Below are positions 30,304-49,689 of a DNA stretch of 64,000 nucleotides, piece after piece. Origin of the DNA: Cumulibacter soli (GTDB lineage Bacteria; Actinomycetota; Actinomycetes; Mycobacteriales; Antricoccaceae); contig NZ_SMSG01000002.1 in the NCBI RefSeq assembly GCF_004382795.1, positions 186,001-250,000 of the forward strand. The letters run 5' to 3'. A program made the position numbers and the translations under genes. The notes beneath the pieces were generated by a model. The model had not been told where the DNA came from, ran no database searches, and saw nothing but the letters and a program-made list of their open reading frames with translations. Every line of letters begins with the position of its first letter. Within the stretch, counting starts at the first letter, position 1.

Positions 30304-30340
30304 TTGCACCTGCACAGCCCGTCGTTTAGTCTTCAACCAG
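30304..30340 (+). promoter_or_regulatory. Promoter P1 of the first leader-peptide module, with conserved downstream box
   Basis: A -35-like TTGCAC (30304-30309), a 17-bp spacer and a TANNNT -10 box TAGTCT (30327-30332). The segment GTCGTTTAGTCTTCAACC begins a 20-bp block (30321-30340) that is 19/20 identical to 41889-41908 before the second leader gene, and the spacing is the same at both sites. The conserved CTTCAACCAG after the -10 box would include the start site and may be a regulator site. Confidence 0.65.
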
Positions 30341-30376
30341 TTCCTATTGTGCGATCAGTGAGGAGAGATGCTGGAC

Positions 30377-30505
30377 ATGCGTACCGTTCACAGCGTCATC
30401 TCCGCGGCCCCCACGCACAATCAGCAGAACATGACCGATCACGAAGCCGCATGGCGGCTGTACGTCGATCTCGGTCTCGTCGCCAGCATGCGCTGTCGCC
30501 CTTAG
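30377..30505 (+). CDS. Short leader peptide 1 (42 codons), C-terminal M-R-C-R-P
   Basis: A small open frame, M-R-T-V-H-S at the start and R-L-Y-V-D-L-G-L-V-A-S-M-R-C-R-P at the end, preceded by AGGAG. An in-frame ATG three codons upstream (30368) is the alternative start. It is clearly homologous to the 37-codon frame at 41957-42070: both share M-R-T, a histidine, A-A-W-R-L-Y-x-D-L-x-L and a final M-R-C-x-x. This resembles the short leader peptides found before sulfur-assimilation genes of actinobacteria, which end in a D-L-x-R-V-A-S-x-x-C pattern and can act as cysteine-sensitive attenuators. The 189 bp between its stop and the first monooxygenase gene have no other frame and could fold into an attenuator. 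Confidence 0.72.
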   Translation: MRTVHSVISAAPTHNQQNMTDHEAAWRLYVDLGLVASMRCRP

Positions 30506-30694
30506 ACGCGGTTCCTCGTAGTCCACGTCATTTCACACATCTTCGCCGTGACGGCGTTCCGTCCGTCATGCGCAGCTCGCATCCACTAATCCGCGAGTCC
30601 TAGGCGTCCCCCACTCTGAGTCACTGCAGTCCACCTGACTGCGCCGCGGGTCGCCGTCGATGTGCCCTCCTTTTCTGACAAAGGGTCTTTTCGC

Positions 30695-31945: not shown

Positions 31946-31964
31946 CAACCAAGGACTTCCCACC

Positions 31965-33356
31965 ATGAGTACCCGCAAACAGATCATCCTCGGCGCACAC
32001 TTCCCGGGCGTCAATAACACCACCGTGTGGCAAGATCCCGACTCCGGCAGCCAGATCGAATTTAAGTCGTTCAAGCACATGGCCGAGTCCGCCGAGCGCG
32101 GAAAGTTCGATTTCCTGTTCCTGGCCGAGGGACTTCGACTGCGCGAACAGCGCGGCAAGATCCACGACCTCGACGTCGTGGGTCGACCCGACACCTTCGC
32201 CGTATTGGCCGCCCTGTCCTCGGTCACCAGCAATCTCGGGCTGATCGGCACCATCAACGCGACGTTCAACGAACCGTACGAAGTCGCTCGCCAATTCGCG
32301 ACGCTCGATCACCTTTCTGCCGGCCGAGCCGCGTGGAATGTCGTCACCAGTTCTGATGCGTTCACCGGCGCGAACTTCCGCCGCGGCGGCTATCTAGATC
32401 GCGAACTACGTTACGAACGCGCCCGAGAGTTGGTGCAGACCGCTCGCGAACTATGGGATTCCTGGGCGCCGAACGCTATCGCCGCCGACAAGCAGACCGG
32501 CCGGTTCCTCAACGAGGAGAATGCGGGAGCGTTCGCACACACCGGGGATCAGTTTGAGATCCGCGGGCGATTCAACGTACCCCGGCCGCCGCAGGGGCAC
32601 CCGGTAATTCTGCAGGCCGGTGATTCTGCACAAGGCCGTGAGTTCGCCGCGCAGACCGCCGACGCGATCTTCACCAGGCACGGCACGCTGGATGAGGGCA
32701 TCGCGTTCAGTCGGGACGTCAAGGCCCGCGCCGTACGAAACGGCCGTAGTGCCGACGACCTGAAGGTTCTTCCGGGAGTCGGGTTCATCCTCGGCGATAC
32801 GGATGCTGACGCCGAGGAGATCAACCGCGAAGTGCGCCTACAGCAGGTGAGCCCGCAAACTGCCATTCTGTTGCTGGAGCAGGTCTGGAATCGGGATCTA
32901 TCGTCGTACGACGCTGATGGACCGCTACCGAAGGTCGATCCCGACGTCGAGTCGATCTCGATCATTCAAGGCCGTGCCCGGATCGTCGACGGGGTCCTGG
33001 AAACCGCGCAGCGGTACCGCGCGCTGGCCGAGGCGAAGAACCTCAGCATCCGCGAACTCATTGTCGAGGTGACCAGCCGCGGACTATTCGTCGGCAGCGC
33101 GAGGACCATAGCTGACAAGCTCGACGAATTCGTACTCGCCGGGGCCAGCGACGGTTTCATCTTGGTGCCGCACATCGTGCCGCATGGCATGGACCGCTTC
33201 GTCGATGAAGTCGTCCCGTTGCTGCAGGAGCGCGGCGCCCTGCGCGCCGAATACGACTCCGGCTCAACCCTGCGAGAGAACCTCGGACTCACACCCGCGA
33301 CGCCCGCGACCGTCTGGGCCGAGCGCGCCGGTGATCTGGAAGCGGCAGCATCATGA
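31965..33356 (+). CDS. NtaA/SnaA/DszA-family FMN-dependent monooxygenase, module 1
   Basis: A 463-residue flavin-dependent monooxygenase. The start at 31965 has AAGGA upstream; the open frame continues 98 codons earlier only as a shadow of the preceding gene. Family landmarks: F-L-A-E-G-L-R-L-R near residues 47-55, D-H-L-S-A-G-R-A-A-W-N-V-V-T-S near 112-126, the F-R-R-G-G-Y-L segment, and P-R-P-P-Q-G-H-P-V-I-L-Q-A-G-D-S near 205-220. These enzymes oxygenate N- or S-containing chelators, sulfones or S-alkyl compounds, cleaving a C-N or C-S bond. The next gene (binding protein) overlaps by ATGA, so oxidation and uptake are coexpressed. Its paralogue is at 44999. Confidence 0.87.
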   Translation: MSTRKQIILGAHFPGVNNTTVWQDPDSGSQIEFKSFKHMAESAERGKFDFLFLAEGLRLREQRGKIHDLDVVGRPDTFAVLAALSSVTSNLGLIGTINATFNEPYEVARQFATLDHLSAGRAAWNVVTSSDAFTGANFRRGGYLDRELRYERARELVQTARELWDSWAPNAIAADKQTGRFLNEENAGAFAHTGDQFEIRGRFNVPRPPQGHPVILQAGDSAQGREFAAQTADAIFTRHGTLDEGIAFSRDVKARAVRNGRSADDLKVLPGVGFILGDTDADAEEINREVRLQQVSPQTAILLLEQVWNRDLSSYDADGPLPKVDPDVESISIIQGRARIVDGVLETAQRYRALAEAKNLSIRELIVEVTSRGLFVGSARTIADKLDEFVLAGASDGFILVPHIVPHGMDRFVDEVVPLLQERGALRAEYDSGSTLRENLGLTPATPATVWAERAGDLEAAAS

Positions 33357-34954
33357 GGCACCGCTTCCTTTTTGCATCTCTCGCTGCGATCCCGACATTG
33401 GCGCTAGCCTCCTGCAGCGGAGCCGGTGCCGAAGGGTCGGACAACAGCACGCCGAGCTCAGGCGGAAGCGCGACATTCGCGGTGAGTTCAGATGCAGGGT
33501 GCGCCGATCCACAGCAAGCCAGCAGCAACGACGCTATTTGGCCGATGCGACAGATCGTTGACTCGCTGACTGATCAGGATCCGGAATCCGGTGACATCGT
33601 GCCGTGGCTGGCGCAGTCGTGGGAGATCAATGATGACGCGACCGAGTTCACGTTCCATCTGGTCTCCGATGCCACGTTCAGCGATGGCGAGCCGGTGGAC
33701 GCCGAAGCGGTCAAGGCCAACTTCGACGCGATCGGTGACCTCGGCGCACGCGGGACATTGGCCCAGGGGTACCTGACCGGCTATACCGGAGCGACCGTCG
33801 TCGATCCGCAGACGGTCACGATCTCCTTCGACGAACCGAATGCGCAGTTCCTGCAGGCAACGTCCACGCACAGCCTCGGGCTGCTCTCACCAGCGAGCGT
33901 GCAACTCGGCGAAGACGAACGGTGCGCCGGTGTAGTGGGATCGGGCCCGTTCGTGATCGAGGACTACACCCCGGACCAGTCCATCGTGTTGACCAAGCGC
34001 GACGGTTACGACTGGGGTTCCTCACTCTTCGCGCACGACGGCGAGGCGTACCTCGATCAGGTCACATTCCAGATCGTGCCCGAGTCCGGAGTCCGTGCCG
34101 GCAGCTTGCAGTCCGGTGAGGTCGATGCGATCAGCAGCATCGGCCCCCAAGACGAAGCAGCATTCACCGGCACCGATGTCCAGCTTCAGGACCGCGCCAA
34201 CCCCGGCATCGTATTCAATCTCGCGTTCAACCACGGGCGACCGCTTGGCGCCGACCCCATCGTGCGAGAGGCGATCTCGAAGGTGATCGACCGCCCGCAA
34301 ATTGTCGATACCGTCTACACCTCACAGACAAAGCCTGCCACCAGCATCCTCGCCGAGACCACGCCCTATTACGACTCTCAAGAGGACCTGCTGGGCACCG
34401 ATATCGACGGCGCCCAGCAACTACTCGAGGACGACGGTTGGTCGACCGGCGAGGAGGGAATCTACGCCAAGAACGGAAAGAAACTCAGCCTGACAATCTC
34501 GTGGAGTGCGGTCATCGGCACCAACAAACCCGCCTTGGAATTGATTCAACAGCAGGCCGCAGCCGCCGGCATCGACCTACAACTCAAGGAACTGCAGGTC
34601 AGCGACTCGGCAACCGTGATCGCCGAAGGCGACTTCGACATCTGGTGGTACAACGTGACCCGCGCCGATCCGGACATTTTGCGATCAACGTACTCAACGA
34701 GCCTGTCAAACCGGTATTCGCTGCCGCCATCGGAGCTCGATGAGGTGCTTGACGCTCAGGGCGCAGTCGCGGATCCGCAGCAAAGGGCCGAGTACGCCGC
34801 CGACGCTCAGCAGCTGATCGTGCAGAACTACTACGCGATCCCGATCGTCGAACTCACCACTGTCTTGGCCCACGGGCCGAACATCCATGACATCGCCTTC
34901 GACGCATCCTCGCGAATCCAACTGTTCGACACCTACATCGACGACAAGGGGTGA
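33353..34954 (+). CDS. Peptide-type ABC transporter substrate-binding lipoprotein (family 5), module 1
   Basis: A 533-residue extracellular binding protein. A signal peptide (R-H-R-F-L-F-A-S-L) ends in the lipobox L-A-S-C near residue 20, giving a lipid-anchored mature protein. The SBP_bac_5 fold is recognisable from S-L-T-D-Q-D-P-E-S-G, L-A-Q-S-W-E-I-N-D-D-A-T-E-F-T-F-H-L and the later V-R-E-A-I-S-K-V-I-D-R-P-Q-I. Members bind peptides, glutathione, nickel or other ligands. It is a close paralogue of the protein at 42208; a 134-bp stretch (33728-33861) is identical to 42595-42728. The permease pair follows directly, so this copy is the one tied to the transporter. Confidence 0.88.
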   Translation: MRHRFLFASLAAIPTLALASCSGAGAEGSDNSTPSSGGSATFAVSSDAGCADPQQASSNDAIWPMRQIVDSLTDQDPESGDIVPWLAQSWEINDDATEFTFHLVSDATFSDGEPVDAEAVKANFDAIGDLGARGTLAQGYLTGYTGATVVDPQTVTISFDEPNAQFLQATSTHSLGLLSPASVQLGEDERCAGVVGSGPFVIEDYTPDQSIVLTKRDGYDWGSSLFAHDGEAYLDQVTFQIVPESGVRAGSLQSGEVDAISSIGPQDEAAFTGTDVQLQDRANPGIVFNLAFNHGRPLGADPIVREAISKVIDRPQIVDTVYTSQTKPATSILAETTPYYDSQEDLLGTDIDGAQQLLEDDGWSTGEEGIYAKNGKKLSLTISWSAVIGTNKPALELIQQQAAAAGIDLQLKELQVSDSATVIAEGDFDIWWYNVTRADPDILRSTYSTSLSNRYSLPPSELDEVLDAQGAVADPQQRAEYAADAQQLIVQNYYAIPIVELTTVLAHGPNIHDIAFDASSRIQLFDTYIDDKG

Positions 34955-34961
34955 CGGCGAC

Positions 34962-35942
34962 GTGGCCAGATACCTGCTGCGCCGATTAGGCCTCGCGATC
35001 GGCGTCCTATGGGCTGCCTTCACGGTCTCCTTCGTGGTGCTCTACCTGGTTCCCGGTGACGTCGTCGATGCGATGACCTCGGCGTCGGACGTCCCACTGT
35101 CGGCGGCGCAGATCGCCGACCTACGGGCAGAGTACGGCGTCGACGAGCCACTGATCGTGCAGTACGGCGAACGACTGTGGGCCGCGTTGCAAGGCGACTT
35201 CGGCAATTCGATTCAGAATGGCCGCTCGGTCACCGACTCAATCATGGGTGCGCTGCCGTCGACTGCCGCCCTCGCGGGGTTCGCGCTCGGGCTCGCCGTG
35301 ATCGGCGGCGGCCTGCTCGCACTTGTCGCAAGCGGTACCGAATCGCGCTGGGCGCGTCAACTGTTGCTGGCGCTCCCACCGCTGGCGGTGTCCCTGCCGA
35401 CGTTCTGGGTCGGCCTGGTGCTGGTGCAGATCTTCAGCTTCCAGTTCGGCTGGTTTCCCGCGGTAGGCGGTGAAGGCATCGCCGGTCTCGTACTGCCGGC
35501 AATCACGCTGGCACTGCCGATCGGCGCGGTGTTCGCACAGGTGCTCTCGCAATCGCTGGGAGCTGCCCTGCACGACGCGTACGTCACGACGGCACGCGCC
35601 AAAGGCGTAGGGCGAGCAGCCGTCTTACTGCGGCACGCCCTACGCAACGCAGCACTACCCGCGCTCACGATCGCCGGCGTACTCGTCGGCAACCTGCTGG
35701 CCGGTGCGGTGGTCGTCGAAACCGTGTTCGCCAGAGCCGGCATCGGACGGTTGACCGTACAGGGCGTCACCGCGCAAGACATTCCACTTGTACAAGGCAT
35801 CGTAGTGTTCGGCGCGCTCGTGTTCGTCACCGTGAACCTGATTGTCGACGTGATCTATCCGCTGTTGGATCCCCGCGTCGCAATCGCCCGGAACAAAGTG
35901 CCTAAAGAACGACCGGCCGCCACGAAGGAGGTGCTGGTATGA
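34962..35942 (+). CDS. DppB-type ABC transporter permease
   Basis: A 326-residue inner-membrane permease with six hydrophobic segments. It starts with the family-typical R-Y-L-L-R-R-L-G-L-A-I-G-V-L after GTG at 34962. An in-frame ATG 25 codons earlier would overlap the binding-protein gene and add no conserved residues. The segment F-V-V-L-Y-L-V-P-G-D-V-V is the DppB signature, and the EAA-like loop lies in A-R-A-K-G-V-G-R-A-A-V-L-L-R-H-A-L. It would pair with the DppC-like protein. Function: forms the membrane channel for import of a peptide-like or organosulfur ligand. Confidence 0.9.
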   Translation: MARYLLRRLGLAIGVLWAAFTVSFVVLYLVPGDVVDAMTSASDVPLSAAQIADLRAEYGVDEPLIVQYGERLWAALQGDFGNSIQNGRSVTDSIMGALPSTAALAGFALGLAVIGGGLLALVASGTESRWARQLLLALPPLAVSLPTFWVGLVLVQIFSFQFGWFPAVGGEGIAGLVLPAITLALPIGAVFAQVLSQSLGAALHDAYVTTARAKGVGRAAVLLRHALRNAALPALTIAGVLVGNLLAGAVVVETVFARAGIGRLTVQGVTAQDIPLVQGIVVFGALVFVTVNLIVDVIYPLLDPRVAIARNKVPKERPAATKEVLV

Positions 35943-36868
35943 GCGAGGCAGCGACCCTTGAACGTAAGACGCCGCCTGCGGTATCACCGGAATTCGGTTC
36001 CCGTGAGGATGCGTTGGACAGTGCTCCACCGCCTGCCCGACGTGGATTGCCGCGATGGCTGACATTCGCACTGGCGCGACCCGGGCTGATCCTCAGCGTG
36101 CTGTTCCTCGGCATGGTTCTGCTGGCATGCTTCGCCCCGAATGTCCTGGCCGACGGTGACCCACTCACCGGAGATCCTGACGATCATCTACAAGGACCTA
36201 GCGGCGAACACCTCTTCGGCACCGACCAACTTGGTCGCGACATCTATACCCGGGTGGTGCACGGAACCGCTTTATCGCTGCAATCAGCGCTCGTTGCCGT
36301 CTCGATCGCGCTCATCGTCGGCGGCCTGCTAGGTCTGGTTGCCGGGACGATCGGTAGATGGGTGGACGAGGCGATCATGCGGGTCGTGGACGTCCTGCTG
36401 GCGATTCCCGCCCTTCTGCTATCACTGGCGCTTATCACCGCACTCGGATACGGCACGCTGAACGTGGCGATCGCCGTTGCGATCGGTTCTATAGCTACGT
36501 TTTCGCGAGTCGCGCGGTCGCAAACGTTAAAGGTCGCCCAAGCCACCTATGTCGAGGCCGCCCGATCGGTGGGCTCGCGGGGGTGGACGACGTTGCGACG
36601 GCACATCCTGCCGAATGCAGCCGGCCCGATCATCGCGCTCGCGGTGCTGGAGTTTGGCGTCGCGATCCTCGCGGTCAGTTCATTGAGCTTCCTCGGGTAC
36701 GGCGCTCCCCCGCCCACGCCGGAGTGGGGATCGATGGTCGCCGAAGGACGAAACTATCTGGCCACCTCGTGGTGGCTCACTACTCTGCCAGGCCTGACGG
36801 TCGCGGCGACCGTGCTGGCGGTCAACCGCGTTTCCCGCGCCCTGGACGGCGAATGGAGCCGAGCATAA
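35939..36868 (+). CDS. DppC-type ABC transporter permease
   Basis: A 309-residue permease. The N-terminus is long and charged before the first membrane helix (P-G-L-I-L-S-V-L-F-L). The motif H-L-F-G-T-D-Q-L-G-R-D near residues 91-101 is diagnostic of the DppC family, and the EAA loop is in Y-V-E-A-A-R-S-V-G-S-R-G-W. The final stretch W-G-S-M-V-A-E-G-R-N-Y is also typical. Its start overlaps the DppB-like stop (ATGA), and its stop is adjacent to the ATPase start with no gap, so subunit amounts are coupled. Confidence 0.92.
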   Translation: MSEAATLERKTPPAVSPEFGSREDALDSAPPPARRGLPRWLTFALARPGLILSVLFLGMVLLACFAPNVLADGDPLTGDPDDHLQGPSGEHLFGTDQLGRDIYTRVVHGTALSLQSALVAVSIALIVGGLLGLVAGTIGRWVDEAIMRVVDVLLAIPALLLSLALITALGYGTLNVAIAVAIGSIATFSRVARSQTLKVAQATYVEAARSVGSRGWTTLRRHILPNAAGPIIALAVLEFGVAILAVSSLSFLGYGAPPPTPEWGSMVAEGRNYLATSWWLTTLPGLTVAATVLAVNRVSRALDGEWSRA

Positions 36869-38545
36869 ATGACCGCAACCAATCCACTGCTGCAGGTGAC
36901 GGACCTACACGCGAGTTACCGCACCCGCTCGGGCTCGGCTGCTGCGCTGCGCGGGGTCGACCTACGAGTATCGCGCGGCGAAGTCGTCGCGTTAGTCGGC
37001 GAGTCCGGTTCCGGTAAGTCAACGCTCGCCCACGCGATCATCGGCCTCCTACCAGCCAACGCGAGCATCGACGGTGGCTCGATCCGCTGGCGTGACCAAG
37101 AAATCGCCGGCGCCTCGAACCGTACCTACCGACGGCTCCGGGGGCGTGAGATCGGACTGGTGCCACAAGACCCGACCATTTCGCTCAATCCGGTTCAACG
37201 AATCGGTCCGCAGGTCGCCGAAGTGTTGCGTGCGCATGGGCTAGCCGATCGCCGCACCTCAACCAACGCTGCAATCGAGGCGTTGGATCGGGCTGGGCTA
37301 CCCGATCCCGGGGTGCGCGCCAAACAGTACCCACACCAACTCTCCGGCGGTATGCGCCAGCGCGCACTGATCGCGATCGGCACCGCCGCCGAACCCAGCC
37401 TGCTCATCGCTGACGAACCCACCAGCGCACTTGACGTGACCGTCCAGGCACGCATCCTCGATGCGATCGAGACGATGCGCGACGAACAGGACATGGCAGT
37501 GCTGCTGGTCACGCACGATCTGGGTGTCGCCGCCGATCGCGCGCAGCGCATCGTGGTGATGTCGAACGGGCAAATCGTCGAGGAGGGACCGACCGAGCAG
37601 GTCTTACACGCACCGCGGCACGACTACACCAAGCGGCTGCTGCAAGCCGCGCCCGGGCTACGCCTCGGCGACACGGCCGAGAGCATTGATGTCAGCTCCC
37701 CGGATCCCGCTCGGATCGCAACAGCCAACGCTGCAGCGCCGCCACTGGTGCAGAGCGTCAATCTCGTCAAGGAGTTCGACCTTCCGGGCGGCGGCACGCT
37801 GCGCGCGGTCAACGACGTAAGTTTCCAGATTCGGATCGGGCACACCCTCGCGCTGGTGGGCGAATCCGGATCCGGGAAATCCACCACAGCGCGTCTGGTG
37901 CTCGGCCTGGAGCAGCCGACGTCGGGCACGGTGACGGTCGCCGGCCGGCAGATGAACGGCCTACGCGGGTCCGCCTGGCGCGACGCGCGCCGGAGCGCGC
38001 AACTGGTCTATCAGAATCCCTATGCGTCGTTGGACCCACGTTGGAGCGTCGCGGATATCGTCACCGAACCGCTGCGGGTCTTCGACGTGGGCAGCAAAGA
38101 GGATCGACATCGACGTGCCGCGGAGTTGATCGGCCGTGTCGCATTGCCCTACGCGACGCTCAAACGCAAGGCAACCGAACTATCTGGTGGGCAACGGCAA
38201 CGGGTCGCGATCGCACGCGCACTAGCTCTTTCTCCCGAACTCGTCGTACTCGATGAACCGGTCTCCGCGCTGGATGTGTCCGTACAGGCCCAGGTTCTGG
38301 AACTACTCGTCGAACTGCAGTCGCAACAGCAACTGACCTACCTGTTCATCACCCACGACCTAGCGGTAGTTCGGCAGATCGCCCACAGCGCGGCGGTCAT
38401 GCGCCGCGGCGAGATCGTCGAGGCCGGCGCCACCAACGACTTGTTCACCAATCCCCGACATGACTACACCCGCGACCTGCTGGCGGCAATCGCCGGGCAA
38501 CGCAGCAGCGCAGATCGCGTACCGATCGGAGCAGTATCGAAATGA
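36869..38545 (+). CDS. Fused DppDF-type ABC transporter ATPase
   Basis: A 558-residue protein with two ATPase modules in one chain. Module 1: Walker A G-E-S-G-S-G-K-S-T near residues 45-53, signature L-S-G-G-M-R-Q-R near 159, Walker B L-L-I-A-D-E-P near 180. Module 2: G-E-S-G-S-G-K-S-T near 333, signature L-S-G-G-Q-R-Q-R near 434, and L-V-V-L-D-E-P near 453. The C-terminal oligopeptide-transporter tail follows each module (P-R-H-D-Y-T). Fused DppDF proteins are common in GsiA-like transporters of glutathione and peptides. It directly follows the permeases and overlaps the next monooxygenase by ATGA. The two modules come from one ancestral fusion. Confidence 0.92.
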   Translation: MTATNPLLQVTDLHASYRTRSGSAAALRGVDLRVSRGEVVALVGESGSGKSTLAHAIIGLLPANASIDGGSIRWRDQEIAGASNRTYRRLRGREIGLVPQDPTISLNPVQRIGPQVAEVLRAHGLADRRTSTNAAIEALDRAGLPDPGVRAKQYPHQLSGGMRQRALIAIGTAAEPSLLIADEPTSALDVTVQARILDAIETMRDEQDMAVLLVTHDLGVAADRAQRIVVMSNGQIVEEGPTEQVLHAPRHDYTKRLLQAAPGLRLGDTAESIDVSSPDPARIATANAAAPPLVQSVNLVKEFDLPGGGTLRAVNDVSFQIRIGHTLALVGESGSGKSTTARLVLGLEQPTSGTVTVAGRQMNGLRGSAWRDARRSAQLVYQNPYASLDPRWSVADIVTEPLRVFDVGSKEDRHRRAAELIGRVALPYATLKRKATELSGGQRQRVAIARALALSPELVVLDEPVSALDVSVQAQVLELLVELQSQQQLTYLFITHDLAVVRQIAHSAAVMRRGEIVEAGATNDLFTNPRHDYTRDLLAAIAGQRSSADRVPIGAVSK

Positions 38546-39645
38546 AATTCCTCGTCCTGACCCTGATCACTCATACTCCGGATCCGGTCACCGGAGTCCA
38601 AACGTCGACGCACGAACGGCTGCGCCGCGTGATCGAGCACGCCGAACTGGCCGAGGAACTCGGCTACGACGGTTATGCCGTTGGCGAGCGGCACGAACGG
38701 CCATTTATTTCCTCATCGCCACCGGTGGTCCTGAGCCACATCGCTGCCCGTACCCGCACCATCCGGCTATTCACCGGTGTCACGACACTGGCACTGCTGG
38801 ATCCGGTCCGCGCGTACGAGGACTACGCAACGCTCGACAACCTCGCCGACGGACGCCTGGAACTCATCATCGGCAAAGGAAACGGCTCCGCGCAGCGCGA
38901 ACTTTTCGCGGTCACGCCAGAGGACCAATGGGACCGCAACAAGGAATCTTACGAGCTGTTCCGACAGCTATGGCGTACGCCGACAGTGTCCTTCCAGGGA
39001 AGGTATCGACCACCAATTGATACCGCGGAAGTCTGGCCGAAGCCGTTCCAGCGCCCGATCCGGGTGTGGCACGGCAGCGCCACCAGCGAACGGTCCGTCG
39101 ATCTGGCGGTTCAATATGGCGAACCTCTGTTCTCCGCGAACGTCACCAACCCGATCGAGCCGTACGCCGACCTCGTCGCCTATTACCGGCGCCGGTGGGC
39201 CGAGGCCGGGCGGGACCCGCGTGATGCGCTGGTCGGAGCAGGCACGGCCGGGTTCTCGATCGCCAGACGGTCTCAGGACGCGATCGAGGCATTCCGTCCG
39301 CTCTACGTGGCGCGCGAGAAGGCACTGGCCGCTAGCGGAGTTCAGCCGGTATTCGCCTCGTATGAGGATTTCGTCGACCGCAGTTCGGCGTTGATCGGCA
39401 GTCCCCAGCAAGTCGGCGAGAAGATTCGTCGCATCCATCAATACCTAGGCAACGAGGTACTGCACCTGCACGCCGACGGTGAGGGCCAGAGCACGGCCGA
39501 ACACCGCGCTTCTCTGGAACTGTTTCAGAGCGAGGTCGCGCCGGAACTTCGTCGCGACCTGCCGAGCAGACCCCTGGCCGCCCCAGTCAATCCGGCTTCG
39601 GAAATTCAGCACAATCACTCCGCGTCGGAGAAGGTGGCGATCTGA
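38542..39645 (+). CDS. LLM-class flavin-dependent monooxygenase
   Basis: A 367-residue luciferase-family protein. Typical features are the N-terminal E-H-A-E-L-A-E-E-L-G-Y-D-G-Y-A-V-G-E-R-H segment (about residues 31-50), D-N-L-A-D-G-R-L-E-L-I-I-G-K-G-N-G near 98-114, and R-I-R-V-W-H-G-S-A near the middle. It lacks the C-terminal extension of the NtaA/DszA group and differs from the pairs at 30695/43860, so it is a third type within the cluster. It overlaps the ATPase stop by ATGA and is followed 2 bp later by another LLM protein. Substrate unknown; cofactor reduced FMN or F420 cannot be told apart by motif. Confidence 0.85.
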   Translation: MKFLVLTLITHTPDPVTGVQTSTHERLRRVIEHAELAEELGYDGYAVGERHERPFISSSPPVVLSHIAARTRTIRLFTGVTTLALLDPVRAYEDYATLDNLADGRLELIIGKGNGSAQRELFAVTPEDQWDRNKESYELFRQLWRTPTVSFQGRYRPPIDTAEVWPKPFQRPIRVWHGSATSERSVDLAVQYGEPLFSANVTNPIEPYADLVAYYRRRWAEAGRDPRDALVGAGTAGFSIARRSQDAIEAFRPLYVAREKALAASGVQPVFASYEDFVDRSSALIGSPQQVGEKIRRIHQYLGNEVLHLHADGEGQSTAEHRASLELFQSEVAPELRRDLPSRPLAAPVNPASEIQHNHSASEKVAI

Positions 39646-39647
39646 GA

Positions 39648-40787
39648 ATGAGCACTATCCCCATGTCCATCCTTGATCTCGCACCGATCCCCGACGGCTC
39701 GAGTGCCGCGGATGCGCTGCGCAACACCATCGATCTCGCGAAGCAGGCCGAGCAGTTCGGGTACAACCGCTATTGGGTCGCCGAACATCATTTCAATCCG
39801 GGCGTTGCGAGCTCCTCACCGACCGTCCTGATCGCACTGATTGCCGCAGCGACAAAACGAATCCGGGTAGGGTCGGGCGCCGTACTCGCCGGGAACACGA
39901 CCGCGACCGCGCTCGTCGAGCAGTGGGGCACCATCGATGCGTTACACCCGGGGCGTCTCGATCTCGGGCTCGGCAGGACAGGCCAGCGCCGCCAGGAAGC
40001 ATTCGCCACGGTCGCCGCAGCGCCGGCGACCGCCCCCACCAACCCCCGGCGTCAGGAACGAACGGTGAACGGGCTGTTACTACCGGCGCCGGTTGACATC
40101 ACCAAGCTCTTGACCTCAGATCGGCTGCGGAATCAGGATGTGCTGCTGCGTCAGGAAGGTGCCGTACCACCGCCGTTTGCCGAACAGGTCTCAGACGTCG
40201 AGGCACTGCTGAACGGCTCCTTCATCGGCCCTTCAGGCGATCCCGTGCACGTGGTGCCGGGCGAGGGCGCGCAGCTACAGGTCTGGCTTTTGGGCAGCAG
40301 CGGTGGTGAGAGCGCGCAGCTCGCCGGTGCGCGCGGTTTACCGTTCGCCGCCAACTATCACGTCGCGCCGTCGGCTGTCCTCGACGCAGTTGAGGCATAC
40401 CGCGCCGCATTCGTCCCCTCAGCGACGCTAGCCGAACCCTACGTGGTGGTCTCGGCCGATGTCGTGGTCGCCGAGAGCGACGAACGAGCGAAAGCGCTCG
40501 CTGCGCCCTATCCCACCTGGGTACACAGCATCCGCAGCGGCGCGGGCGCGATTCCCTACCCCTCGCCCAACCAGGTTGCGCTCAACGAGTTCTCGAGCGA
40601 AGACTGGGCGCTCGTCGAGGATCGCGTTCGCACTCAGTTCGTGGGTTCACCCGCGCGTGTCGCCGAGCGCCTGCGCGTCCTACAGGACGCCACCGGCGCT
40701 GACGAGTTACTCATCACCTCGGTCACTCACGATCACTCTGACCGAGTGCGCTCACACGAATTACTAGCAACCGAGTGGCTCGGCTAA
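39648..40787 (+). CDS. MsnO8-like LLM-class flavin-dependent oxidoreductase
   Basis: A 379-residue luciferase-family protein beginning I-P-M-S-I-L-D-L-A-P-I-P-D-G, a start typical of MsnO8-type oxidoreductases. The R-Y-W-V-A-E-H-H-F-N-P-G-V-A-S-S segment and the L-H-P-G-R-L-D-L-G-L-G-R motif support the call. Members lie in clusters for sulfur-compound use or antibiotic biosynthesis and oxidise small molecules. The gene is 2 bp after the previous LLM gene, and 87 bp precede the DUF1684 gene. Four different luciferase-type enzymes therefore belong to this transcription unit. Confidence 0.83.
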   Translation: MSTIPMSILDLAPIPDGSSAADALRNTIDLAKQAEQFGYNRYWVAEHHFNPGVASSSPTVLIALIAAATKRIRVGSGAVLAGNTTATALVEQWGTIDALHPGRLDLGLGRTGQRRQEAFATVAAAPATAPTNPRRQERTVNGLLLPAPVDITKLLTSDRLRNQDVLLRQEGAVPPPFAEQVSDVEALLNGSFIGPSGDPVHVVPGEGAQLQVWLLGSSGGESAQLAGARGLPFAANYHVAPSAVLDAVEAYRAAFVPSATLAEPYVVVSADVVVAESDERAKALAAPYPTWVHSIRSGAGAIPYPSPNQVALNEFSSEDWALVEDRVRTQFVGSPARVAERLRVLQDATGADELLITSVTHDHSDRVRSHELLATEWLG

Positions 40788-41735: not shown

Positions 41736-41764
41736 CACAGCCGATCTAGCCGCTTCCCAAACAT

Positions 41765-41797
41765 GGCGGGTCTTTGGGGTTCCCCCGAAGGCCCGCC
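41765..41797 (+). terminator. Terminator closing module 1
   Basis: A 15-bp stem with two G-U pairs (outer GGCGGG/CCCGCC, inner GGGG/CCCC) and a 3-base loop, located 29 bp after the DUF1684 stop and followed by CTGTGCGTTCTTG. It separates module 1 from the second leader promoter. Confidence 0.75.
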
Positions 41798-41871
41798 CTG
41801 TGCGTTCTTGCAGACCCTAGATATATCAGGCATGCGCGATTATGAGGCACGCCACACCGCCTCGTTGCCAC

Positions 41872-41908
41872 TTGTGCAACCTAGGGCAGTCGTTTATTCT
41901 TCAACCAG
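41872..41908 (+). promoter_or_regulatory. Promoter P2 of the second leader-peptide module
   Basis: A -35-like TTGTGC (41872-41877), a 17-bp spacer and a -10 box TATTCT (41895-41900), followed by the same CTTCAACCAG block as in P1. GTCGTTTATTCTTCAACC (start of 41889-41908) differs from the P1 copy at a single base. The duplication covers promoter, leader peptide and part of the structural genes. Confidence 0.65.
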
Positions 41909-41956
41909 GCAATTCGGCCACACCCCAACGATATCGGCGAAGAAAAGGACGGCCCC

Positions 41957-42070
41957 ATGCGTACTGCTGGCACCTTCCGTATCGCCACCACGCACCTGCA
42001 GGGATACGACGCCGCATGGCGGCTCTACCTTGACCTGGCACTCGCTGCCGGAATGCGCTGTCCGCGCTAG
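41957..42070 (+). CDS. Short leader peptide 2 (37 codons), C-terminal M-R-C-P-R
   Basis: A small open frame starting M-R-T-A-G-T and ending A-A-W-R-L-Y-L-D-L-A-L-A-A-G-M-R-C-P-R, with AAGGA 7 bases upstream. It is the paralogue of the frame at 30377-30505: the A-A-W-R-L-Y-x-D-L-x-L core and the final M-R-C are shared while the N-termini differ, which implies selection on the encoded peptide rather than mere DNA duplication. The 137 bp that follow, up to the binding-protein gene at 42208, contain no gene and end with an AAAGG site. Role as a sulfur- or cysteine-responsive leader is inferred from its resemblance to actinobacterial sulfur leaders. Confidence 0.72.
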   Translation: MRTAGTFRIATTHLQGYDAAWRLYLDLALAAGMRCPR

Positions 42071-42207
42071 TCGCGCCACCCCAGCCCGCATTCCCTCTCG
42101 TCACCCATCGGCACTCCGGCCGCGATGGTTTGGCCACTACGCGTATCACCGTAATCGCCACCCGTTGGCGCGTGACGCCACATCTCCTGACAAAGGTCAA
42201 AACTCTC

Positions 42208-43815
42208 ATGCGTCTGCAACGCACTCATCTGCGCATCTCTCTGTCCTTCCTCCCACTCGCCTCGCTGGCACTCACCGCGTGCGGTGGTGCCTCTGCTGAT
42301 TCCAGCGACGCGCGCTCTCCCAGCCCGGGCGGTAACGCGACGTTCGCCGTCAGTTCCGATGCCGGCTGCGTTGATCCGCAGCAAGTCGGCAGCAACGACG
42401 CGATATGGTCCGCGCGCCAGGTCGTTGATTCCCTCACTGATCAGGATCCCGAGTCCGGGGAAATCGTGCCGTGGCTCGCCGAATCGTGGGACATCAACGA
42501 CGACGCGACCGAGTTCACGTTCCACCTGCATGACGGCGCGACATTCAGCGACGGGGAACCGGTCGACGCTGAATCGGTCAAGGCCAATTTCGATGCGATC
42601 GGTGACCTCGGCGCACGCGGGACATTGGCCCAGGGGTACCTGACCGGCTATACCGGAGCGACCGTCGTCGATCCGCAGACGGTCACGATCTCCTTCGACG
42701 AACCGAATGCGCAGTTCCTGCAGGCAACCTCTACGCACAGCCTCGGACTGCTCTCGCCGCAAAGCGCGAAACTCAGCGACGACGAGCGCTGCGAAGGCGT
42801 CGTGGGATCGGGCCCCTTCGTGCTCGAGGACTACACGCCGGATCAGTCCATCATTCTGGCGAAGCGTGACGGCTACGACTGGGGATCATCCCTGTTCACC
42901 CACGATGGCGAGGCCTACCTCGATCAGATCACGTTCCAGATCGTGCCCGAGTCCGGAGTCCGTGCCGGCAGCTTGCAATCGGGTGAGGTCGATGCGATCA
43001 GCAGCATCGGCCCCCAAGACGAAGCAGCATTCACCGGCACCGATGTTCAACTTCAGGACCGCTCCAACCCCGGCGTGGTGTTCAACCTCGGGTTCAACTA
43101 CGGGCGACCGCTTGGCGCCGACCCCGTCGTGCGAGAGGCGATCTCGAAGGTGATCGACCGCCAGCAGATCGTGGACACCGTCTACACCTCGCAAACGCTG
43201 CCGGCCACCAGCATCCTGGCTTCCACGACGCCCTACTACGCCTCCCAGGAAGAACTTCTGGGCACCGATATCGACGGCGCCCAGCAACTACTCGAGGACG
43301 ACGGTTGGTCGGCCGGCGAGGACGGAATCTACGCCAAGAACGGAAAGAAACTCAGCCTGACAATCTCCTGGAGTGCGGTCATCGGCACCAACAAACCCGC
43401 ACTCGAACTCATCCAACAACAGGCGGCGGCCGCCGGCATCGACCTGCAGCTCCAGGAAGTGCAGATCAGCGAGACAACGGCAGTACTTGCCGAAGGCGAT
43501 TTCGACATTTTCTGGGGCAACATCACCCGGGCAGATCCGGACATTCTGCGATCCAGTTATTGGAGCGGCGGCGCGAACCGCTACCAGTTGCCCGCGTCTG
43601 AACTGGATGACCTCCTGGTCGCACAGTCGGCCGAAATCGATCCGGCGATACGTGCCGATGTGCTCGCGGAACTTCAGGAGACGTTCGTTCAGGACTACGT
43701 CTCGGTCCCGGTCGTCGAACTCACGACCGTGCTGGCGCACGGACCACATATTCACGACATCACTTACGACGCGTCCTCACGCATCCAGTTGTTCGACACC
43801 TATGTCAGCGCGTAG
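42208..43815 (+). CDS. Peptide-type ABC transporter substrate-binding lipoprotein (family 5), module 2
   Basis: A 535-residue lipoprotein, close paralogue of the one at 33353. The start at 42208 gives a signal peptide with lipobox L-T-A-C near residue 25; the earlier in-frame start would put extra residues before the signal. The SBP_bac_5 body is nearly collinear with copy 1, and the middle is highly alike; 42595-42728 is identical to 33728-33861. The C-terminal 100 residues diverge more. No permease or ATPase is encoded in module 2, so it presumably hands a second ligand to the transporter of module 1. It follows leader peptide 2 and precedes two monooxygenases. Confidence 0.87.
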   Translation: MRLQRTHLRISLSFLPLASLALTACGGASADSSDARSPSPGGNATFAVSSDAGCVDPQQVGSNDAIWSARQVVDSLTDQDPESGEIVPWLAESWDINDDATEFTFHLHDGATFSDGEPVDAESVKANFDAIGDLGARGTLAQGYLTGYTGATVVDPQTVTISFDEPNAQFLQATSTHSLGLLSPQSAKLSDDERCEGVVGSGPFVLEDYTPDQSIILAKRDGYDWGSSLFTHDGEAYLDQITFQIVPESGVRAGSLQSGEVDAISSIGPQDEAAFTGTDVQLQDRSNPGVVFNLGFNYGRPLGADPVVREAISKVIDRQQIVDTVYTSQTLPATSILASTTPYYASQEELLGTDIDGAQQLLEDDGWSAGEDGIYAKNGKKLSLTISWSAVIGTNKPALELIQQQAAAAGIDLQLQEVQISETTAVLAEGDFDIFWGNITRADPDILRSSYWSGGANRYQLPASELDDLLVAQSAEIDPAIRADVLAELQETFVQDYVSVPVVELTTVLAHGPHIHDITYDASSRIQLFDTYVSA

Positions 43816-43859: not shown

Positions 43860-45002
43860 ATGTCGCACATACCCACCGATCTCTCTCGTACGCCGTTGGC
43901 GATCGGCATAGAACTCAATGGCGCGGGCGTACATCCTGCGGCCTGGACTACGCGACCTGCTCGGTCGTTCACCGAACCTCGGCGATTCCGTGAACTCGCG
44001 CGCGGAGCCGAGAATGCCGGCTTCACGTTCGTCACGTTCGGCGAGCGCGATGCTCTCGATCCGCCCACTGGTCCGATAGGCCGTCTCGATTCGATCGAGC
44101 TTGCTGCGTTCGTGGCAGCTTCGACTCGCGACATCGGCCTGCTGGCAGTCGCCGGAGTAATTCACGCCGAGCCGTTTCACCTCGCCAATCAGCTCGCGAG
44201 CCTCGACTTCGCGGCGACCGGCCGAGCCGGATGGATCGTAGATCCCTATGACAGCGCCGAACGCGCGCGTTCCTACGGCGTACCCCAGATCACCGATGCT
44301 CACCGGCGGCGTGCTGAGGCCAGCGAGGTCGTGGCGGCCGTACGACGACTATGGGACACGTGGGAGGACGGCGTACTAATCGCAGACGTGGAGTCCGGGC
44401 ACTTCCTCGACCCGGACCGGCTGCACTACGCAGACTTCGACGGCGAGTTCTTCAGTGTCAAAGGTCCAGCGATCACACCGCGGCCTCCGCAGGGCCACCT
44501 TCCGATCCTCGCGCCCGCCACCGCGGACGCCCCGATCGTCGATGTCATCCTGGCGAGCGCGTCAGATCTGTCGCAGCTTCGCGAGCGCATCCGCGCGCAA
44601 CGGTCACAATTCGCACAACCCGTCCGGGTGATCGTCGAGCTCGAGGTTCTGCTGGACAGCGACAGCAGCTCGGCTACGGAACGTCTGCAAGTGTTGGACC
44701 GCGAGCATACCTGGGATTCGAGCCGCCTACGCTACGTTGGCGACGCCAACGGACTCGTTTCGCTGCTGCGGGACATCAGCCCCGACGCAGATGGTGTCAG
44801 GCTCTTCGGCGCGGTGACGGACGTGGACCTGTGGGCATTGGTCCGCAGCGTGCTGCCCCGACTTCGCGATCGCGGCCTTCTCGCGCTACCGTCGCGGAAC
44901 CTGCGGGCAACTTTCGGACTAGGTGCCGCGAGCAACTCGTTGAGCAACTCACGGCACCCCGACCATTCGGCACAGCCGGTACCGGCGGGAGTGTCCCGAT
45001 GA
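43860..45002 (+). CDS. LLM-class flavin-dependent monooxygenase, module 2
   Basis: A 380-residue luciferase-family protein, paralogue of the protein at 30695. Shared landmarks are E-L-N-G-A-G-V-H-P-A-A-W near residue 18, the A-T-G-R-A-G-W stretch near 119, W-D-T-W-E-D-G and the F-F-S-V-K-G-P-A-I-T-P-R-P-P-Q-G motif. The C-terminus is shorter and more divergent than in copy 1. The stop overlaps the next monooxygenase start (ATGA), giving coupled synthesis. Function is presumably oxygenation of a related but different sulfur or nitrogen compound. Confidence 0.82.
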   Translation: MSHIPTDLSRTPLAIGIELNGAGVHPAAWTTRPARSFTEPRRFRELARGAENAGFTFVTFGERDALDPPTGPIGRLDSIELAAFVAASTRDIGLLAVAGVIHAEPFHLANQLASLDFAATGRAGWIVDPYDSAERARSYGVPQITDAHRRRAEASEVVAAVRRLWDTWEDGVLIADVESGHFLDPDRLHYADFDGEFFSVKGPAITPRPPQGHLPILAPATADAPIVDVILASASDLSQLRERIRAQRSQFAQPVRVIVELEVLLDSDSSSATERLQVLDREHTWDSSRLRYVGDANGLVSLLRDISPDADGVRLFGAVTDVDLWALVRSVLPRLRDRGLLALPSRNLRATFGLGAASNSLSNSRHPDHSAQPVPAGVSR

Positions 45003-46333
45003 GCATTCCGAAAATTTCCCAGCGCGGTCACCAACTGCACCTCGCATTGTTCTTTCCGTTCGCACCCAACTATTTGTGGAACGAGACCGAACGGAACGAT
45101 ATTTACTACGACTTCGATGCGCACGTGCAATTGATCAAGACCGCCGAACGCGGTCTGTTCAGCACCGTGTTCTTCGGGGAGAGTCTGCGGTTGCGTGAGC
45201 ATCTGGGCAAGGTGAACGTCTCGGCGATCACCGGTCGTCCGGACGCGCTGGTGCTGTTCGCCTACCTCGCCGCACACACCTCGAACATCGGCTTTGTAGC
45301 CACCCTGAACACCACCTACGCCGATCCGATCGACCTCGCCCGCCGAATCGCGACGGTCGACGTACTCACCGAAGGGCGCGCCGGATGGAACGTCGTTACG
45401 ACTGACAATGCCTGGACCGGCGCGAACTTCCGTAAAGGCGGCTACCTACCACACCGCGACCGGTACCGGCATGCCGCTGAGCACATCGACGCGATACAGG
45501 CCATCTGGGACGGCTGGGATGCCGGGACGGCCGACTACTCCGGCGAGTTCTACGATCTGGCAACCCGTTCCACTGTGCCCCCAAGCCCGCAGGCACAGCC
45601 GGTGTTCTTTCAGGCCGGCGAATCCGACGAAGGACGAGACTTCGCCGCGAAGTATGCCGAAGGCATCTTCTCGCGCTATATCGATTTCGAACCTGCTCTC
45701 GCATTTGCCCACGACCTCGGCCGGCGGTTAGTCGCCGCAGGGCGCCCGGCCGATGACGTGCGGATCTTTCCGAGCGCGGGTGTCGTGCTCGGTGATACCG
45801 ACAAGGAGGCCCACGAGAAGTCTGTGTGGTTGCGCGATCAGATCTGGACCGACCGCCGCATCCTGGAGGTCATCGAGGCGGTGTGGGGTCGGGATCTGTC
45901 CGGCACCGACGTCGACGGACCGTTGCCCGAGCAGGGTCCGACGATCATCAAGCAAAGCCGTAGCCATGGGGTGATGAACTCCAGGGATGAGCCACAACGC
46001 ATCGCCGCCAGCTGGCGTGACCTCTCTACGGAACACGGATACTCCATCAGAGAACTGGTGCATCATCTGACGGCTTCTCGCTCTTTCGTGGGTACGCCCT
46101 CGAAGGTTGCCGACGAGCTCACGCGGTACGTGCGGGCCGGCGCCATCGATGGGCTGAACCTCACCGCGGACGCCTTTCCCCATGGCTTGGGCGATGTAGT
46201 CGATCGCCTAGTGCCCGAACTACAGGAACGTGGCGTGTACCCGCGCGAGTATGCGGGAACGACGCTGCGCGAGAACCTCGGCCTCTCGGCCCCCGTATCG
46301 CGTCGCCGCGTAGCGGACGGAGTGAGCGCGTGA
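44999..46333 (+). CDS. NtaA/SnaA/DszA-family FMN-dependent monooxygenase, module 2
   Basis: A 444-residue flavin-dependent monooxygenase, paralogue of the protein at 31965. The start at 44999 overlaps the previous stop; the frame continues far upstream only as a shadow. Landmarks: F-F-G-E-S-L-R-L-R-E-H near residues 58-68, V-L-T-E-G-R-A-G-W-N-V-V-T-T near 122-135, F-R-K-G-G-Y-L-P, and S-P-Q-A-Q-P-V-F-F-Q-A-G-E-S near 197-210. Members oxidise nitrilotriacetate, sulfones or S-alkyl compounds with reduced FMN supplied by a separate reductase. The OYE-family gene downstream overlaps by GTGA and may assist with flavin reduction or product reduction. Confidence 0.86.
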   Translation: MSIPKISQRGHQLHLALFFPFAPNYLWNETERNDIYYDFDAHVQLIKTAERGLFSTVFFGESLRLREHLGKVNVSAITGRPDALVLFAYLAAHTSNIGFVATLNTTYADPIDLARRIATVDVLTEGRAGWNVVTTDNAWTGANFRKGGYLPHRDRYRHAAEHIDAIQAIWDGWDAGTADYSGEFYDLATRSTVPPSPQAQPVFFQAGESDEGRDFAAKYAEGIFSRYIDFEPALAFAHDLGRRLVAAGRPADDVRIFPSAGVVLGDTDKEAHEKSVWLRDQIWTDRRILEVIEAVWGRDLSGTDVDGPLPEQGPTIIKQSRSHGVMNSRDEPQRIAASWRDLSTEHGYSIRELVHHLTASRSFVGTPSKVADELTRYVRAGAIDGLNLTADAFPHGLGDVVDRLVPELQERGVYPREYAGTTLRENLGLSAPVSRRRVADGVSA

Positions 46334-47445
46334 GCACCCAACAGCAGTTCCGGCCGGTGGTGGCCGGCCAGCGCAGCGGGCTATTCGACCCGCTCACGAT
46401 CCGCGGGGTGACGTTCGCAAATCGTGCGTGGCTTTCGCCAATGTGCCAGTATTCGGCCGAAGGCGGGCTACCGGGCGATTGGCATCTAGCGCATCTCGGT
46501 GCCCGCGCCTCCGGGGGATTCGGACTCGTGATGGCCGAATCTACGGCCGTCTCGCCAGAGAGCCGGATCAGTCTGTATGACACCGGACTGTGGAACGACG
46601 CCCAGCGACAGGCATGGCAGAGAATCGTGAGCTTCGTGCACACGCGCGGCGCGAAGATCGGGATCCAGCTGTCACATGCAGGACGAAAGGCCTCGATCCG
46701 CCGGCCGTGGGATGACGATCAAGGATCGCTACCCTCCGCTAACGGCGGCTGGCGTACGGCGAGTGTGGACGATGTCCCGTTTCCGGGCCTCGATGCGCCG
46801 AGACGGCTGAACCTCGACGACATCGCGGTTATCGTTGACGACTTCGCAGCCGCAGCTCGCCGCGCCGACGCCGCCGGGTTTGATGTGCTTGAGATTCAGG
46901 CTGGACATGGCTTCCTACTGCATAGTTTCTTATCGCCACTGAGCAACCAACGCGAGGGGCGGTACGGCGGGTCACCACAGAATCGAGCGCGCCTGTTGTT
47001 CGAGGTGATCGATTCTGCTCGCGGCGTGTGGCCGTCGGACAAGCCGTTGTTCGTCCGATTCTCGGTCACGGACTGGCTGGCCGACGGCCTGGTGCCCGCC
47101 GACATCACCGCGTTGACGCAGCAGTTGCGGCAGCACGGTGTTGACCTGATCGACGTGTCCAGTGGCGGTCTGCTCCCCGCGCAACCTCCCACCAGTCCGG
47201 GCTATCACGTGCCGCTGGCCGATTCGATCCGCGATGCCGGGCAGTTGCCGGTCGCCGTGGTGGGCGAGATCGACGGCCCGCAGCAGGCGCAGAAAGTGAT
47301 CGATTCCGGTTCTGCAGACGCAGTATTTCTCGGTCGCGCTGCACTACGCGACCCGATGTGGCCACTACGGGCAGCGCATGAATTGGACGTGACCGATCGC
47401 GACTGGTTGTGGCAACCGCAATACGTGCGCGGGAACTGGGCATAA
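46330..47445 (+). CDS. Old-yellow-enzyme family NADH:flavin oxidoreductase (YqjM-like)
   Basis: A 371-residue FMN TIM-barrel reductase starting with GTG that overlaps the previous stop. Characteristic motifs are N-R-A-W-L-S-P-M-C-Q-Y near residue 31-41 (the cysteine is the YqjM-class active-site residue), I-G-I-Q-L-S-H-A-G-R-K-A near 110, the Q-A-G-H-G-F-L-L-H-S-F-L-S-P segment near 190, and V-F-L-G-R-A-A-L-R-D-P near 335. OYEs reduce activated C=C bonds with NAD(P)H. It is the last gene of module 2. Whether it handles the product of the monooxygenases or supplies electrons is unknown. Confidence 0.88.
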   Translation: MSTQQQFRPVVAGQRSGLFDPLTIRGVTFANRAWLSPMCQYSAEGGLPGDWHLAHLGARASGGFGLVMAESTAVSPESRISLYDTGLWNDAQRQAWQRIVSFVHTRGAKIGIQLSHAGRKASIRRPWDDDQGSLPSANGGWRTASVDDVPFPGLDAPRRLNLDDIAVIVDDFAAAARRADAAGFDVLEIQAGHGFLLHSFLSPLSNQREGRYGGSPQNRARLLFEVIDSARGVWPSDKPLFVRFSVTDWLADGLVPADITALTQQLRQHGVDLIDVSSGGLLPAQPPTSPGYHVPLADSIRDAGQLPVAVVGEIDGPQQAQKVIDSGSADAVFLGRAALRDPMWPLRAAHELDVTDRDWLWQPQYVRGNWA

Positions 47446-49528: not shown

Positions 49529-49575
49529 CGACCACCTCGTCTCTTCGGGTACTACCCAATCTTAGGGGTAGCGAT

Positions 49576-49594
49576 TTAGGTGAGGCGAACCTTA
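49576..49594. promoter_or_regulatory. IdeR/DmdR-type iron box before efeU
   Basis: TTAGGTGAGGCGAACCTTA matches the actinobacterial iron-box consensus TTAGGTTAGGCTAACCTAA at 16 of 19 positions, including both TTAGG and AACCT half-sites. It lies 96 bp before the efeU start and 48 bp before the divergent response-regulator start. IdeR with Fe2+ would repress efeUOB, and perhaps the two-component genes, in iron-replete cells. Confidence 0.8.
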
Positions 49595-49689
49595 GTCTCG
49601 ACCGGGCTGGTCCGCCCCTTCAGGACGAGATAGGAAACCCCACGCACCATGCTGTCGAACCTCGTCGACGCCTGCACCAGAGCTGCACC

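Follow-up and report, generated by a model that had tools for sequence, protein, structure and literature searches.

Paired leader peptides with a single cysteine codon ahead of two probable organosulphur operons in Cumulibacter soli

Two operons in a 64,000-nucleotide stretch of the Cumulibacter soli genome (here called the window) are each preceded by a short open reading frame, and the encoded peptides, leader 1 and leader 2, share a C-terminal core (Table 1). The question raised by the pair is what such a core might sense. The reading that we favor, with a probability of roughly 60%, is that both leaders are cis-acting peptides that tie a probable organosulphur-uptake operon to the supply of cysteinyl-tRNA, a ribosome stalled at a UGU codon blocking Rho-type termination.

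Table 1. Features of the two leader regions and their operons (window positions)
Feature	Position	Strand	Remarks
Leader 1 promoter	30304..30340	+	-35-like TTGCAC (30304-30309), 17-nt spacer, -10 TAGTCT (30327-30332), box 30321-30340
Leader peptide 1 ORF	30377..30505	+	42 aa; MRTVHSVISAAPTHNQQNMTDHEAAWRLYVDLGLVASMRCRP; TGT cysteine codon 30494-30496
Spacer from leader 1 to first gene	30506..30694	+	MRC/stop region predicted to pair with Shine-Dalgarno (SD) sequence and start codon of first gene
Operon 1	30695..40787	+	luciferase-like monooxygenases, SBP_bac_5, two permeases, double ATPase, two more luciferase-like monooxygenases
-35-like hexamer TTGTGC, leader 2	41872..41877	+	17 nt ahead of -10; same spacing in leader 1 and both congeneric orthologues
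19/20 box, leader 2	41889..41908	+	promoter spacer end, -10 TATTCT (41895-41900), presumed start region TCAACCAG
Leader peptide 2 ORF	41957..42070	+	37 aa; C-terminal M-R-C-P-R-stop; MRTAGTFRIATTHLQGYDAAWRLYLDLALAAGMRCPR
Leader 2 conserved 17-codon core	42011..42061	+	AAWRLYLDLALAAGMRC; TGT cysteine codon 42059-42061
Spacer after leader 2 stop	42071..42207	+	C-rich, G-poor; SD-like AAAGG at 42192-42196 (by eye)
SBP_bac_5 solute-binding protein	42208..43815	+	first gene of operon 2; 81% identical to the operon 1 protein
Luciferase-like monooxygenase	43860..45002	+	resembles NtaA/DmoA family, below cut-off
Second luciferase-like monooxygenase	44351..46333	+	NtaA/DmoA family, over cut-off
NADH:flavin oxidoreductase (OYE family)	46330..47445	+	

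The two peptides have AAWRLYxDLxLxAxMRC in common, and in both the cysteine codon is TGT and is followed by exactly two codons and then TAG. Their N-terminal halves differ in length and in sequence, and leader 1 has an alternative in-frame ATG at 30368. The preliminary description of the locus had reported two paralogous leaders with the same C-terminal core and a box identical at 19 of 20 positions, and both are present as claimed. It had also taken the peptide sequence itself to be under selection and had proposed a codon-level comparison. Between the two copies, 6.5 synonymous and 4.5 nonsynonymous changes were counted over the 17 codons of the core (pN/pS 0.25). A degenerate core pattern retrieved four leaders from 3 of 61 genomes, all of one genus. 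The window's genome has two of them, and G001 and G002, the only other genomes of the genus in the set, have one each. A slightly different core pattern had no exact match in the genome_contigs collection, which possibly leaves out records of or near the window's genome. The leaders of the congeners differ by three synonymous and no nonsynonymous changes in the core and by five of each in the 18 codons before it, all small numbers, and a frameshifted core, which the preliminary description had named as speaking against its reading, was found in none of the four copies. The purifying codon pattern of the core and the orthologous leaders in both congeners bear out selection on the peptide.

The congeners also indicate what may once have preceded the leaders. 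In both, a SAM-IV aptamer (93.3 bits in G001, 98.5 bits in G002) starts on the final base of the box and lies between the promoter box and the leader, the ATG that aligns with that of the window being 28 nt (G001) or 26 nt (G002) past the 3' end of the aptamer; the G002 leader has an earlier in-frame ATG as well. Rfam reported no SAM riboswitch in the window at gathering scores, our own unfiltered SAM-IV model gave best plus-strand scores of only 2.8 and 2.0 bits at the two loci, and our own SAM-I model had no match in the window at E values up to 0.001. SAM-IV (RF00634) and SAM-I (RF00162) riboswitches, which stand just ahead of the leader in relatives, were undetected at both window loci. 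In the window species, both copies seem to have shed their SAM input and retained promoter and leader. The stronger statement that its genome is without any SAM riboswitch proved wrong, as two SAM-I matches over the cut-off and one sub-threshold SAM-IV match (29.2 bits) are present. Behind the latter (locus L149, G000:C4:177352-177453, minus strand) come a leader-like ORF with a TGT cysteine codon, scoring 17.0 bits and ending AVRRFPIDLMMTASSLCRY, and then an ABC ATPase that by eye looks like the nitrate/sulphonate type; L149 may be a riboswitch-leader stack of this kind in decay.

The operons downstream carry one monooxygenase each over the NtaA/DmoA family cut-off, together with permeases and a double ATPase in operon 1 and an OYE-type flavin oxidoreductase in operon 2. 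The solute-binding proteins (SBPs) are 81% identical and two pairs of monooxygenases 34% and 39% identical, and thus neither operon is simply a copy of the other. The second operon 2 monooxygenase probably starts downstream of the listed ORF start, because its family match begins near residue 243. From family knowledge, we take the gene types to suggest uptake and desulphuration of organic sulphur, and both operons are probably sulphur-scavenging (organosulphur) operons. A DUF1684 protein is encoded on the same strand between operon 1 and leader 2 (40875-41735). Directly after operon 2 lie a two-component pair (histidine kinase and LuxR-type response regulator) and an FTR1/imelysin iron-uptake cluster (47524-49528 and 49519-52502).

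To place the leaders, the HMM of the actinobacterial "putative leader peptide" family NF042934 of NCBIfam (cis_reg_atten; cut-off 27 bits) was used. Neither window peptide was matched at E values up to 10, and the window leaders are absent from the seven matches obtained in the genome at that limit (150 of 170 first-look candidates scored). Because the cut-off is not reached, we do not count the window leaders as members and claim relatedness only. Three of five leader-like peptides from SBP-homologue loci exceed the cut-off, and family-type leaders at such loci read RR[HY][VI]DLxRVxSxxC. With a profile of our own built from 24 NF042934-type cores, leader 1 scored 9.8 bits, a score reached by 3 of 13089 shuffled short ORFs (2.3e-4), and ranked 15th among 4025 real short ORFs, behind 14 that look like family leaders. 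The G001 and G002 orthologues scored 12.0 bits (2 of 13089 shuffled short ORFs as high, 1.5e-4). Leader 2 scored -0.6 bits (null fraction 3e-3), which by itself is near background, and thus its link to the family runs through leader 1 and the orthologues.

Intermediate forms connect the window peptides to the family. A second G001 leader, MHSTATRRRHVDYGRMSCMRCRPGR, stands ahead of another SBP gene, scores 13.9 bits, and bridges both forms through M-R-C-R-P, and Pseudonocardia leaders such as TWHAWRHHVDLCRTATALCRA (L230; similar at L158, L215, and L235) share A-W-R-x-[HY]-[VI]-D-L with the window form. Because of these intermediates, the window peptides look like a diverged branch of NF042934. 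Like the family, they have a position ahead of a probable sulphur transport operon, an R-x-[HY]-V-D-L-x7-C core near the C terminus, a TGT cysteine codon, and a C-rich spacer; unlike the family, they lack an HMM match and have AAWRLY before VDL, L rather than R after it, and M-R before the cysteine. Resemblance of the core to a large actinobacterial leader family ahead of homologous operons lends credibility to the sensing role that had been suggested. The window's genome also encodes canonical-form leaders: one at G000:C11:13194 (L064; MTFEYAFSRRHVDLLRVSSALCC) exceeds the NF042934 cut-off with 32.3 bits, and another at C1:738883 (L068), ending TKRRCIDLCRVSACRCRAI, falls below it with 24.1 bits and stands ahead of what is, by eye, a lipoprotein-type binding protein. 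A leader subtype reading TRRHVDY(C/V)R(T/V), located away from the SBP gene, likewise has TGT (L168, L182, L191, and others).

Leaders and aptamers were mapped around SBP homologues at the best 80 of 382 relatives, 4 of which have less than 1 kb of upstream sequence; many are Streptomyces loci, and hence the set does not amount to 80 independent cases. A leader of at least 10 bits occurred somewhere, on either strand, at 72 of the 80 loci. A family-type leader lay on the same strand within 1 kb upstream at 61 loci, as against 1 antisense leader and none on either strand in a 1-kb stretch of the SBP gene; no leader was found within 1 kb upstream at the other 19. Aptamers were called with models of our own (R1 and R2), the SAM-I model being built on four sequences. 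Fifty-two of the 61 SBP-proximal leaders follow an aptamer at no more than 250 nt (42 SAM-IV and 10 SAM-I), indicating that both riboswitch classes occupy the same slot, and no aptamer was found ahead of the remaining 9. Seen from the aptamers, 64 of the 74 in these loci are followed by a leader core and 10 have no leader within 250 nt, and the control, with aptamer and leader on opposite strands, yields 3 pairs. The distance from aptamer end to leader core is 17 to 69 nt for SAM-I and 81 to 131 nt for SAM-IV.

Re-testing with Rfam at eight loci gave agreement on SAM-IV ahead of the SBP-proximal leader at the three where our own model is strong (L160, L168, and L186), and a weak match at L193 (48.9 bits, own model) went unreported at the gathering score. 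For SAM-I, 11 of 15 matches in 13 loci reached the gathering score, L215 fell just below it (42.1 versus 44.4), and three were unreported (L192, L194 at 6647-6742, and L236); among the 10 SBP-proximal cases 8 were confirmed, the exceptions being L215 and L236. At the scale of whole genomes in the order, a comparison by hand placed one of 96 NF042934 matches no more than 120 nt downstream, on the same strand, for at least 11 of 64 SAM-IV places, and the riboswitch-leader stack is therefore a minority of SAM-IV riboswitches genome-wide and the rule only at SBP loci. In a subset of 30 of the 64 places, 4 had a leader downstream on the same strand and none had one in each of three control positions. 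SAM aptamers without a leader within 250 nt occur at SBP loci such as L226 (Nesterenkonia massiliensis; 5118-5228 and 17155-17274) and L225 (6146-6239); riboswitch and leader modules seem to be gained or lost separately.

The cysteine codon of the leaders is highly regular. The core cysteine is encoded by TGT in 60 of 61 SBP-proximal leaders, 108 of 111 others, and 153 of 157 distinct cores, counts that are not independent because the leaders are related by descent. By comparison, TGT accounts for 5 of 143 cysteine codons in the SBP genes and for 31 of 79 other cysteines of the 61 leader ORFs (longest reading). The window-type leaders, which score too low for inclusion in these sets, have TGT in all four cases. 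Letters after TGT vary in the family rows printed, and thus what is kept seems to be the codon and not a longer motif. TGT is not the sole rare codon in the core, though much the strongest: aspartate at core position 7 has the rare codon GAT in 61 of 157 cores versus 6%. A stop two codons past the cysteine is found in 54 of the 61 SBP-proximal and in each of the four window-type leaders; the distance varies among the other 111.

The spacer beyond the stop is biased in composition. Over its first 40 nt, C and G fractions are 0.55 and 0.15 after leader 2 and 0.35 and 0.17 after leader 1; the means for 157 family leaders are 0.477 and 0.273, with C exceeding G in 93% (95% of the 61 SBP-proximal leaders). 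Among controls, 60 stops of SBP genes showed this excess in 30% of cases, 10737 stops of other short ORFs from the 80 loci in 44%, 59 stretches lying 420 to 460 nt before the core in 54%, and 2447 stops of open frames of at least 250 codons in any frame, many of which are not genes, in 51%. No intrinsic terminator-like site of the kind expected of a classical attenuator was found in 41750-42300 or 30200-30750. As judged by composition, a C-rich, G-poor tract after the stop would fit a Rho-loading site.

The likeliest way for these features to act together, in our view, is as follows. When Cys-tRNA is scarce, the ribosome would stall at the UGU codon close to the leader's end and occupy the beginning of the C-rich tract. 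Rho-type termination within the spacer would then be prevented, and the operon would be on. When cysteine is ample, the ribosome would finish the leader and leave, exposing the tract. The proposal works like TnaC of Escherichia coli, in which a Rho-type site is masked by a ribosome held next to it at the leader end; TnaC responds to excess tryptophan through arrest by the peptide, whereas the signal proposed for the window is a lack of Cys-tRNA. In relatives, a SAM-IV or SAM-I riboswitch ahead may gate translation of the leader, making a two-input switch for SAM and cysteine. More tentatively, and as a possibility that we hold to be worth stating rather than probable, a large actinobacterial family might sense through one rare, wobble-read UGU codon, a sensor that at organosulphur operons would routinely lie behind a SAM-IV or SAM-I riboswitch, SAM gating leader translation and Cys-tRNA its extent; the window would then represent the state after SAM loss, both duplicated operons responding to cysteine only. 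If so, a single mRNA leader would let actinobacteria weigh both ends of the sulphur pathway when deciding on organic sulphur scavenging. Two regularities make the idea testable, namely, the near-invariant rare cysteine codon and the recurrent pairing with two SAM riboswitch classes.

Several observations sit uneasily with termination by Rho under control of Cys-tRNA: a single cysteine codon rather than a run, an indication of Rho by base composition only, a TGT codon that might be kept for another reason, the enrichment of GAT in the same core, and the failure of the NF042934 HMM to match either window peptide. The fold of the leader 1 RNA, better than 99 of 100 shuffles and with SD pairing, would suit translational attenuation. 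In that scheme the end of the leader is base-paired to the ribosome-binding site of the first gene until a ribosome held up at the cysteine codon frees it, without transcription termination. For leader 1 the z-score of the RNA is -2.5, that of the duplex -2.2, and in the minimum-energy fold the MRC/stop region is paired with the SD sequence and start codon; moreover, cysteine genes of Mycobacterium smegmatis are described as regulated by translation attenuation in the available text of a 2026 paper (PMC13236596). Leader 2 does not follow suit (fold z-score -0.4, duplex z +1.6), and over 59 loci the mean duplex z was +0.26 compared with +0.24 for a mid-spacer control at 54 of them. In the duplex test the gene start of leader 1 was set 2 nt too late, for which little effect is expected on a 31-nt stretch. 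Nineteen Streptomyces spacers, picked by a pattern around the SD sequence and hence conserved within it by construction, gave a covariation term of -0.29 kcal/mol and a two-sided change in 7 of 45 predicted pairs. A structured attenuator was rejected for lack of an intrinsic terminator, leader-SD pairing no higher than control in the 59 loci, and little covariation in the 19 spacers. We consider translational attenuation unlikely as a general account, and a translational variant for leader 1 is possible on the modeled fold. About equally improbable is arrest by the nascent chain, the [HY]-[VI]-D-L...C peptide stalling the ribosome on a metabolite and not by lack of charged tRNA. TnaC and SecM are peptides that stall the ribosome in this manner, and both the purifying codon pattern and the conservation of positions away from the cysteine ([HY][VI]DL, and AAWR in the window type) would be expected of one. 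A purely peptide-based arrest leaves the near-invariant synonymous choice of TGT (153 of 157) unexplained, and the cysteine-to-stop tail varies in the wider family.

The preliminary description had raised the possibility of one regulator binding CTTCAACCAG at both promoters; on the strict form of this reading, a transcription factor co-regulates both operons and the leaders are incidental. In its favor, the 20-mers GTCGTTTAGTCTTCAACCAG (30321-30340) and GTCGTTTATTCTTCAACCAG (41889-41908) are identical at 19 of 20 positions, compared with a best match of 16 when one 150-nt upstream region was set against 60 base-composition shuffles of the other. A longer box, TCGTTTANTNTTCAACNAG, was found with up to two mismatches in 3 of 5 genomes searched and is nearly confined to these leaders: two sites in the window's genome (one at each leader), one ahead of the orthologous leader in each congener, and one further two-mismatch site elsewhere in G001, with none in the five genomes when the pattern was read backwards. 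CTTCAACCAG itself occurs exactly twice in the window and at 5 places with at most one mismatch, as against 2.0 expected, a number reached by 5 of 100 shuffles, and by itself is weak evidence. All four copies have the promoter form TTGnnn-N17-TAnTnT, and the -35-like hexamer of leader 2 starts at 41872, the cited start of the locus; that both copies have the same promoter architecture was correctly described. A consensus promoter scan reported no promoter at either leader (41750-42300 and 30200-30750), and the promoter reading is based on hexamers and spacing common to the four copies. A -10-like hexamer is also seen by eye at a similar distance ahead of the aptamer in many other SAM-IV loci. 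Because the SAM-IV aptamer of the congeners begins at the end of the box, the box is most simply read as promoter and start region. CTTCAACCAG was rejected as an operator, since it coincides with the -10 end and presumed start of the core promoter at a fixed 17 nt from the -35-like hexamer, and no inverted or direct repeat is evident in the box by eye. We consider such a regulator very improbable, and of the proposed two-operon regulon there stands that two operons with paralogous genes share leader and promoter, while a common trans-regulator is unsupported. Still less credible is that the ORFs encode small functional proteins of their own or arise by chance. The differing N-terminal halves would suit a chance or fast-evolving peptide, but all four copies retain the core at a fixed place, each with TGT two codons ahead of the stop, and similar leaders precede homologous operons at 61 of 80 loci.

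We conclude that the feature is ordinary in kind, a cysteine-type leader ahead of probable sulphur genes, and unusual in form, an HMM-invisible branch with its riboswitch apparently lost. A leader known so far from one genus is thereby linked to a family whose sole NCBI designation is "putative leader peptide." Canestrari (2020) reportedly deals with cysteine leader peptides of mycobacteria. The mycobacterial cysteine leaders (NCBIfam Ms4527A and Ms5788A; PMC1262725, PMC4633059), as far as these sources were available, are likewise short ORFs with cysteine near the end ahead of sulphur genes, but have runs or clusters of cysteine codons, whereas each window leader has one codon and no consecutive run. 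In the available text of Seliverstov et al. (2005), Rho was suggested at mycobacterial cysteine leaders without terminator hairpins and the tna operon was named as a model; the Rho motifs were not conserved, and the prediction was called weak (PMC1262725). The examples of Shell (2015), in the portion available, are on leaderless mRNAs (PMC4633059), whereas the presumed start in the window lies about 50 nt (leader 2) or 40 nt (leader 1) before the ORF. In the consulted sections of other work, UGC dominates in the alphaproteobacterial cysS cysteine uORF (PMC8632094), and eight leaders are named in Streptomyces lividans, none for cysteine (PMC8079986).

The available parts of PMC2965389, PMC12452182, and PMC9094748 contain nothing on an invariant UGU or on a stack of SAM riboswitch and cysteine leader, and among the titles and abstract openings of the papers listed none concerned either in actinobacteria, which falls short of proving novelty. 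In Mycobacterium tuberculosis, a B12 riboswitch and a translated uORF similarly share one 5' region, but the ligand is another one and the abstract is silent on uORFs sensing an amino acid (PMC11260477). The window's genome has a cobalamin riboswitch of its own, with a score of 80.4 bits, at 16392-16555 of locus L011 on contig C12.
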